Shown one piece after another: positions 21,348-34,274 of a stretch of 48,392 bases of DNA (positions within the stretch are counted from its first letter, which is position 1; the number at the start of each line of letters is the position of its first letter). The position numbers and the translations under genes are program-made. Under the pieces are notes generated by a model, which was not told the DNA's origin, did no database searches, and saw only the letters and a program-made list of their open reading frames with translations. The DNA is from an uncultured Alphaproteobacteria bacterium (GTDB lineage: Bacteria > Pseudomonadota > Alphaproteobacteria > CAAHEQ01 > UBA3637), in NCBI GenBank assembly GCA_944392145.1, contig CALXVS010000001.1, positions 75,502 to 123,893 of the forward strand, in the 5' to 3' direction.

Positions 21348-21357
21348 TTTTTTCACC

Positions 21358-21386
21358 TTGTCAAACCGTTTTTTTTCTGATATAAT
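21358..21386 (+). promoter_or_regulatory. Promoter of the permuted tmRNA gene
   Basis: TTGTCA (21358-21363), 17 bases, TATAAT (21381-21386). The predicted start near 21393 coincides with the beginning of the tmRNA acceptor piece. Confidence 0.85.
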
Positions 21387-21394
21387 GATTTCCC

Positions 21395-21474
21395 GTCAGG
21401 CAACTGACTATGATGCTAAACGAGGAGTGAAATAGATGTAGTGGACTCGGGGGCAGTGCCCGACACCTCCACCA
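21395..21474 (+). ncRNA. ssrA: tmRNA acceptor piece (two-piece, permuted ssrA)
   Basis: This is the 3' half of tmRNA, encoded first. It holds CTGACTATGATGC as in the tmRNA 3' domain, a T-arm-like stem TCGGG/CCCGA with loop GGCAGTG, and the acceptor strand CACCTCC followed by ACCA at 21471-21474. CACCTCC pairs with GGGGGTG at 21839-21845, the 5' end of the coding piece. The 5' boundary is approximate. The permuted order (acceptor piece before coding piece) is the known alphaproteobacterial arrangement. Confidence 0.87.
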
Positions 21475-21838
21475 ATTTTAAACGGTCTTAAAAAGGCACC
21501 GTTTTTCAACAGCCGGGTTTGTTGATTTAAACGGGGAAAGGGAAGCAAAAATCATTTTGACGTGTATTTTAACATACACGAAAAAGGATTTTAACGATAA
21601 GGCACCGTTTTTTCAACAGCCGGGTTTGTTGATTTAAACGGGGAAAGGGAAGCAAAAATCATTTTGACGTGTATTCAAACATACACGAAAAAGGATTTTA
21701 ACGACAAGGCACCGTTTTTTCAACAGCCAGGTTTGTTGATTTAAACGGGGAAAGGGAAGCAAAAATCATTTTGACGTGTATTTTAACATACACGAAAAAG
21801 GATTTTTGCGACAAGGCACCGTTTAAATCAACAAAGAC
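21475..21838 (+). other. tmRNA intervening segment, enlarged by repeats
   Basis: This is the stretch between the acceptor piece CCA and the coding piece 5' end, removed on maturation. It is 364 nt long. Its two ends can pair (TTTAAACGGT near 21477 with ACCGTTTAAA near 21819), which suggests an ancestral single hairpin. Three tandem ~107-bp units have been added within it. No open frame of interest is present. Confidence 0.8.
21493..21835 (+). repeat. Three tandem ~107-bp structured repeats plus partial fourth
   Basis: Units start at 21493, 21599 and 21706 (106, 107, 107 bp), each with AAGGCACCGTTT; a fragment (21813-21835) restarts the pattern. Each unit has hairpin H1 (in unit 1, 21499-21534: CCGTTT/AAACGG and TCAACA/TGTTGA) and hairpin H2 (21547-21592: CGTGTAT/ATACACG with an AAAATC/GATTTT base). 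The H2 loop differs between units (TTTAAC or TCAAAC) while the stem is kept. Each unit also carries TTTGTTGATTTAAACGG, the reverse complement of the segment's 3' end. Confidence 0.95.
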
Positions 21839-22058
21839 GGGGGTGAAACAGGATCGACACGCATAATAAAGACTTTTTCTTGCATTCGGCATGGTACCGT
21901 CGTTAAAGGACTAAAAAAAATAAATGCAAATGATAATTTTGCTCCGGTTGCAAAAGCGGCGTAAGCTGAAGAAACAACCGATTAATTCCTTGGGCATATG
22001 AGCGCCGAAGGTGGGGGTGGCCGGTTTCCCCAGCAACAGAAAAACCGGCACTTTTTTT
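21839..22058 (+). ncRNA. ssrA: tmRNA coding piece with proteolysis tag and terminator
   Basis: The 5' half of tmRNA begins GGGGGTGAAACAGGATCGAC. The resume codon GCA is at 21926, and the tag frame 21926-21964 encodes ANDNFAPVAKAA followed by TAA. After the tag come pseudoknot-like segments. At the end, GCCGGTTT with AAAACCGGC followed by seven T (22020-22058) serves as terminator, so the mature 3' end lies somewhat before 22058. Together with the acceptor piece it rescues stalled ribosomes and tags the product for ClpXP. Confidence 0.9.
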
Positions 22059-22068
22059 AGGAGAAGAC

Positions 22069-22503
22069 ATGCATCCGAAATATTTCAGGTATTTAAGAAA
22101 AGCGTATATAACAATGGCTGCCGATATTTTAAAAGACGTGGCAAAAAATGGCTTAACGGATGAAAGTTATTATTTTATTTCTTTTGACACGTGTCATCCG
22201 CAGGTGGAAATGCCGGCTTTTTTAAAGGCAAAATACCCCAAAGAAATGAGCATTGTTTTACAACATCAATTTGACAATTTAAACGTTTCGGATACGGAGT
22301 TTTCGGTAGAGTTGACATTTGGCGGGACACCAGCAACACTGGTGATTCCATTTGAAGCCCTTATTTATTTTGCCGATCCGGCACAAGAATTGGCCTTGCC
22401 CTTGCAATTTTCTTTTAATTCGGAAAACGCGAACTCATCTCAAGAGTCTTCACCATCCGAAACAGCAGAAGTGATTGATTTAAAAAGCCGTTTTAAAAAA
22501 TGA
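22069..22503 (+). CDS. sspB: SspB-like ClpXP adaptor for ssrA-tagged proteins
   Basis: SspB tethers ssrA-tagged substrates to ClpX. The 144-aa protein matches the alpha-type SspB pattern: an N-terminal helix, YYFISFDTCHPQVEMPAFLKAKYP, MSIVLQHQFDNLNV, and FSVELTFGGTPATLVIPFEAL. A flexible Ser/Glu-rich linker and a short basic ClpX-binding tail (VIDLKSRFKK) follow. SD AGGAGAAG lies just before ATG 22069, immediately after the tmRNA terminator. The gene sits directly downstream of the RNA whose products it handles, and overlaps the next gene as ATGA. Confidence 0.9.
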   Translation: MHPKYFRYLRKAYITMAADILKDVAKNGLTDESYYFISFDTCHPQVEMPAFLKAKYPKEMSIVLQHQFDNLNVSDTEFSVELTFGGTPATLVIPFEALIYFADPAQELALPLQFSFNSENANSSQESSPSETAEVIDLKSRFKK

Positions 22504-23677: not shown

Positions 23678-24048
23678 CCTGTTCTTTATGTTACATAAAG
23701 GATCCTTTTCTTTAGACACTGTATTTTTGTTTTATCCCATTGTTTTATAAGAAAAAATCAAACCATGTCGCTGTATTTTTATCCCCTTAAGTTTAAGTGG
23801 TAACTATCGGACCTGTATTGTCACTAAAAAAGTATTTTGCACATGGATTTAGTGTTTAAAAACAACACATTGATTCCGTTTCAAAAAGGAACCTTTTTTT
23901 GCAACTGTTTTTTTATGGTTTTTGAAAAAAAGAAAAATTAGCTGATTTTGCATTTAAATAAGTGTGTTAGGACAAAAAAATCCCGTTATTTGTTTTTGTC
24001 CGATTCGGGCGTTACAAAAAGGTTCCTTTATGTAACATAAAGAACAGG
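23678..24048. repeat. Inverted 28-bp repeats bounding the prepilin promoter region
   Basis: The left arm 23678-23705 (CCTGTTCTTTATG..., ending GGATCC) and the right arm 24021-24048 (beginning GGTTCC, ending AAGAACAGG) are reverse complements with two mismatches. Each contains the palindrome CTTTATGTTACATAAAG. The 315 bp between are AT-rich, without a gene, and hold the upstream palindrome site A. This accounts for most of the 589-bp gap between uppP and the prepilin gene. Confidence 0.85.
23883..24040 (+). promoter_or_regulatory. Two-site regulatory region of the first prepilin gene
   Basis: Site A, AAAAAGGAACCTTTTTTTGC (centre 23890.5), and site B, AAAAAGGTTCCTTTATG (centre 24023.5), are 133 bp apart. 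TTACAA (24012-24017), 16 bases, TACATA is a possible promoter with site B in its spacer. The same arrangement and spacing stand before the second prepilin gene. Confidence 0.65.
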
Positions 24049-24078
24049 TTGAAACCAAGCTGTTTTATGGGAGGTTAC

Positions 24079-34005: not shown

Positions 34006-34051
34006 ATGAATCCCCCGTTATGGTACGTATAAACAGATGCTTAGCAGTGTA

Positions 34052-34208
34052 ACATAAAGGTTCCTTTTTGTAACGCCGTCCAAACGGATAGAAGACTTAT
34101 CGGATATTTTTTAAAAAACAGATTGATTCTTAAGGGATTCTTTTGTTTTTTATTTTTTTTCAAAAAACATAAAAAAACGGTTGCAAAAAAAGGAACCTTT
34201 TTGTAACG
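34052..34208 (-). promoter_or_regulatory. Two-site regulatory region of the second prepilin gene
   Basis: On the minus strand, site A (AAAAAGGTTCCTTTTTTTGC, centre 34194.5) and site B (AAAAAGGAACCTTTATG, centre 34061.5) are 133 bp apart, as at the first locus. TTTTTTTATG and TTTTTTGAAAAAAA segments after site A and GGCGTTAC before site B are also shared. A possible promoter is TTACAA, 16 bases, TACACT at site B. Confidence 0.65.
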
Positions 34209-34274
34209 CTTTTAACACGTTGTTTTTATGGGGGAATGGGGAATGTTGTCACCGCCTACGACACCTCTCCGATG

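Follow-up and report, generated by a model that had tools for sequence, protein, structure and literature searches.

In the 48,392-nucleotide window analysed here, a stretch of the genome of an uncultured alphaproteobacterium, the permuted two-piece gene for transfer-messenger RNA (tmRNA), ssrA, is interrupted by a 364-nt intervening segment that holds three near-identical tandem units. The array is probably derived from a diverged palindromic hairpin element, lying antisense in the tmRNA spacer, which was duplicated in tandem via short direct repeats and is tolerated as an insert. The element is assigned to a family, named R2 here after the covariance model that finds it, of palindromic hairpins of about 85-110 nt that are dispersed, singly and in arrays, in other genomes of the same bacterial family. 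Permuted RNA genes own a built-in dispensable part. At the ssrA locus of the window and of several relatives this part has been colonised and expanded by palindromic repeats, so that split tmRNA can document elements of this kind.

The tmRNA gene and its repeat array

An Rfam cmscan search matched ssrA to the alpha_tmRNA model (RF01849) with 213.1 bits at 21354-22052 and to a second model, tmRNA_permuted (RF04321), with 124.5 bits at 21412-21964; ARAGORN made no call for ssrA of the window. The acceptor piece lies 5' of the coding piece and ends in CCA, the tag reading frame ends in Ala-Ala, and a joined acceptor stem is formed across the two pieces by pairing of CACCUCC (21464-21470) with GGGGGUG (21839-21845). 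The original prediction, made from the letters of the window, had proposed a covariance search to fix the piece boundaries, and this search together with the sequence bore out the CCA end at 21474, the coding start at 21839 and the length of the segment between them.

The prediction had also described three near-identical units of 106-107 bp in the segment, in agreement with the tandem array found at 21493-21824 (period 107, 3.1 copies, 96% matches). The repeat AAGGCACCGTTT recurs at 21493, 21599, 21706 and 21813, with a spacing of 106-107, and the fourth copy diverges after CCGTTT. The arms at 21732-21748 and 21819-21835 are complementary at 17 of 17 positions, and the closing arm, CCGTTTAAATCAACAAA, is kept by the last unit only. 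The whole segment folds as RNA with a z of -10.2 (0 of 100 shuffles being as good), and the last unit folded alone reaches a z of -10.0. A small hairpin at 21480-21504, which has AAGGCACCGTTTTT in common with the units, may be read as a unit that has lost its middle. The stems of the units had further been described as conserved and a loop as variable. This contrast is in itself no evidence of selection within the array, since the units differ from each other at just a handful of positions. The evidence for a conserved structure therefore comes from relatives.

It is barely credible that the repeats are the product of an assembly or binning error. The genome of the window (G000) is a draft of 49 contigs, and short reads resolve near-identical tandem copies poorly, which leaves room for a wrong copy number. 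However, the array is internal to a contig of 123,893 bases, its units differ at several positions, and similar arrays are present in the same gene of other genomes. An intrinsic terminator, a hairpin with a T-run behind it, was also considered and rejected: the array is followed by GACGGGGG, T-runs behind members of the R2 family are mostly 2-4 at longest, and a terminator would silence the coding piece lying downstream.

Intervening segments in related genomes

A comparison of segments among related genomes, likewise proposed with the original prediction, supports its statement that the segment is usually much shorter. Of 40 further tmRNA loci from this bacterial family, 35 have a segment of 2-25 nt, and the five exceptions measure 102, 209, 209, 365 and 412 nt. 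A looser pattern recovered 30 loci, mostly from other alphaproteobacterial families, with segments of 0-56 nt. Long segments recur in this bacterial family, and four of the five (in genomes G017, G024, G025 and G027) contain hairpins of the R2 family. The segments of G017 and G025 have a hairpin in common, with 73% identity, and in both the R2 match begins 4-5 nt after CCA. In G025 the segment has three tandem units with a spacing of 113 nt, in the same place as the array of the window. The hairpins are sense in G017, G024 and G025 and antisense in G000 and G027, the one in G027 stopping some 13 nt short of the coding piece. In the 412-nt segment of G027 (locus L033), partial repeats occur internally, as does a run of N.

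A dispersed family of hairpin elements

Pieces of the hairpin of G017 and G025 were found between infB and rbfA in G009 (gene names taken from reading frames). A covariance model built from four such hairpins, R1, found dispersed copies, and 31 R1 matches were used to build R2. The window was left out of both models; the training set of R2 includes the hairpin of the G027 segment and the second hairpin of the G017 segment. In the R2 structure a long stem, whose arms are paired but variable, carries the apex CTYRTGTAC..GTACACNNCG. R2 matched about 80 times in 12 of 43 genomes of the bacterial family with additional matches in nine genomes from other families of Alphaproteobacteria. The total of more than 100 copies, single and tandem, is a lower bound in draft genomes, where several matches lie at contig ends. 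Few candidates per genome were scored in the class-wide search, and E-values, from a short calibration, are rough. R2 found no match in ten other small alphaproteobacterial genomes, and among 54 pattern-matched loci searched with it the full hairpin was not matched in those of Eremiobacterota. Rfam gave no convincing match for the hairpin elements in the 12 loci tried, and no description of the family was found in open-licence literature.

In an alignment of 119 distinct matches, 89.3% of cells are paired, both partners have changed in 24 of the 25 pairs, and the covariation score is 0.735, compared with 0.166 when shuffled and at most 0.179 when slid; the alignment was fitted to the R2 model, which inflates the pairing and covariation figures somewhat. 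Rows from outside the bacterial family have a mean identity of 47%. Held-out rows contain 89 G-U pairs versus 57 A-C mismatches, which hints mildly at selection acting on RNA, although the model has its own preference for G-U.

Arrays with a period of about 100-120 also occur elsewhere in relatives, namely on contigs C27, C19 and C39 of G009 and C31 of G001. In those of C27 and C19 the closing arm is found in the last unit only, the same plan as in the window. On C31 (locus L154, 76-710), near the contig start, six family hairpins follow one another with a period of 110.

Placement behind stop codons

The placement of family hairpins was measured, at loci with room upstream, from the stop codon of an open frame of at least 80 codons to the start of the R2 match. 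In 41 of 69 loci a stop codon lies 3-14 nt before the R2 start, a slot of 12 nt, as compared with 1.6% for random places in the same loci; the nominal p of 2.6e-55 assumes independent loci, though a few are orthologues. In other genomes most copies of the family are intergenic, and between co-directional genes the hairpin is sense in 26 cases and antisense in five. As is usual for the family, the tmRNA copies of G017, G024 and G025 are sense and lie at the 3' end of a gene; the units of the window, being antisense, depart from this. In G009 a family hairpin (locus L127, 467-551) lies directly behind the CCA of tRNA-Trp.

Two traits mark the hairpin family found here: compensatory changes are dense, and the copies sharply favour the first few bases after a stop codon. 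We tentatively raise the possibility that these hairpins are an undescribed alphaproteobacterial structured element, located immediately after stop codons and after the CCA in tRNA and tmRNA, that might either act on the transcript 3' end or be inserted by a mechanism recognising gene ends, and that may have entered the tmRNA spacer more than once. The stop-codon placement raises a testable question, RNA function versus targeted insertion.

Probable origin and fate of the window array

In the window R2 scores highest on the minus strand of the three units, with 27.0, 20.0 and 18.8 bits, the next match scoring 16.7. A 32-nt core of each unit matches the second hairpin of the G017 segment at 91-94% in inverted orientation, in agreement with the R2 strand calls for the window units and the G017 hairpin. 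When the G017 segment was searched against 43 genomes, this core was its best match outside the two carrier genomes (E 3.3e-6). Taken together, the weak model score and the 32-nt match make the units likely members of the R2 family.

Several observations weigh against this derivation. The units do not pass E 0.05 at whole-genome scale, several internal R2 pairs are broken in them, and their scores rest partly on tmRNA-segment hairpins from other species in the R2 training set. The SspB tree, on which the long-segment trait needs three changes and the placement of G000 is unsure, is also compatible with a single old insertion. Further, neither BLAST nor R2 found a second copy in G000. The original prediction of a palindromic element that entered the discarded part of the gene and amplified is consequently upheld in part: the short segments of relatives and the rank of the units as best R2 hits agree with it, but dispersal in G000 finds no support.

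The missing second copy, the score of just 27 bits and the broken inner pairs would also suit a hairpin native to the spacer that arose locally and was duplicated in tandem, its likeness to the dispersed family reflecting convergence on a hairpin shape and an AT-rich apex. Such a local origin is nevertheless unlikely in the light of the 32-nt match to the G017 segment and of the three units outranking all else in the window; in addition, R2 gave no match in about 280 kb of the rest of G000, where other stable hairpins do not score.

Under the favoured derivation from R2, a hairpin element of this family would have entered the spacer between the two pieces of the permuted gene in antisense orientation. 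The AAGGCACCGTTT direct repeats at the element edges would allow tandem duplication by slippage or unequal recombination, with three units and a collapsed remnant as the outcome. Duplication between short repeats flanking a palindrome would give an array with the closing arm in its last unit only. The insert would be tolerated because the spacer is discarded by tRNA-processing nucleases. Removal of the intervening segment of permuted tmRNA by tRNA-processing enzymes is known from one report (PMC11915505), and very few reads map to the 129-nt intervening segment of Hodgkinia tmRNA (PMC6581868). With removal expected and few reads in Hodgkinia, a tolerated insert is the cheapest account. For the present organism, we infer the duplication route, the neutrality of the insert and the removal of the spacer.

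The alternative that the repeats are functional, either as a processing platform joining the two tmRNA ends or as a stable RNA released on maturation, is highly unlikely. The very stable fold, the start of the model match so close behind CCA in G017 and G025 and the preference of family hairpins for gene 3' ends in sense orientation could be cited in its favour. Yet a spacer of a few nucleotides is enough for most relatives, and few reads lie on the Hodgkinia segment (PMC6581868). The functional role offered in the original prediction is weakened by the hairpins pointing opposite ways in the tmRNA genes of different species. A function for the repeats within the segment is unsupported.

Features of the locus and other repeats in the window

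The features of the locus are collected in Table 1. The gene sspB lies directly 3' of ssrA in the window, and the same pairing is seen in many relatives; in known systems, SspB is an adaptor that delivers tmRNA-tagged proteins to ClpXP. Elsewhere in the window, inverted arms of the AAAAAGGTTCCTTT type, spaced by about 117 nt, are common to the intergenic stretches 23863-24051 and 34028-34228, together with GTAACATAAAGG motifs. Downstream of the former is a frame of 714 aa, which begins with a pilin-like N-terminal stretch and contains many CxxC motifs.

Table 1. Coordinates of ssrA, its parts, the repeat units and the neighbouring gene in the window
Feature	Positions	Strand	Basis and remarks
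ssrA, permuted gene for two-piece tmRNA, full extent of the alpha_tmRNA match	21354-22052	+	RF01849, RF04321
Acceptor piece, CCA end at 21474	21395-21474	+	cmscan, stem pairing; 5' end approximate, tRNA-like part begins near 21412
Intervening segment (364 nt), removal expected on maturation	21475-21838	+	Sequence, cmscan, fold z -10.2
Small hairpin	21480-21504		Fold; AAGGCACCGTTTTT common to it and the units
Repeat unit 1	21493-21598	-	R2 match 21527-21611, 18.8 bits
Repeat unit 2	21599-21705	-	R2 match 21634-21718, 20.0 bits
Repeat unit 3	21706-21812	-	R2 match 21741-21825, 27.0 bits; fold
Partial fourth unit	21813-21835		Its 21819-21835 closes a long hairpin with 21732-21748
Coding piece of tmRNA	21839-22052	+	Sequence, cmscan
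Tag reading frame ANDNFAPVAKAA plus stop	21926-21964	+	Translation, sequence
sspB, neighbour outside the element	22069-22503	+	PF04386, E 3.7e-31

Comparison with known elements

The CIR elements of Caulobacter and its relatives are intergenic repeats of about 110 bp conserved in Alphaproteobacteria (PMC2229807). They carry conserved GANTC sites, whereas GANTC is not enriched in R2 elements (1.4 per kb as against 2.2 per kb around them), and a link to CcrM and CIRs was rejected.

Repetitive extragenic palindromic (REP) sequences and bacterial interspersed mosaic elements (BIMEs) also occur in clusters. They resemble the R2 family in being hairpins, part of which lie just downstream of stop codons, but are of other length and sequence. 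In Enterobacteria, ribosomes can be stalled by REPs located within 15 nt of a stop (PMC12306157). A Y1 (RAYT) transposase was rejected as the mover of the R2 family, with no PF01797 match in G000 or in the copy-rich genomes G009 and G028; its presence does not track copy number. The 1.5-Mb genome G005 has 28 Y1 transposase matches, many of them broken.

Rickettsia palindromic elements (RPEs) are 105-146 bp in length, form a long stem-loop and have been found in the genes of tmRNA and RNase P RNA (PMC2229807). The array of the window is similar to them as a palindromic element with a long stem-loop inserted in a tmRNA gene. The original prediction had likened it to these elements, and in placement the likeness fails: RPEs are known from inside genes, whereas R2 copies, as far as the two can be compared by description, follow stop codons and mostly share the orientation of the gene. 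Many dispersed host copies, partly in protein genes, are a further RPE trait that was looked for and not found, with a single locus in G000 and mostly intergenic copies elsewhere.

A likeness in location links the array to HGM16780 sp944390355, whose tmRNA gene, the longest known with 1152 bp, is reported to contain a repetitive element in its intervening sequence (PMC11915505). In location, this element corresponds to the array of the window. The general phenomenon is already known, both RPEs and a repetitive element having been reported in tmRNA genes.
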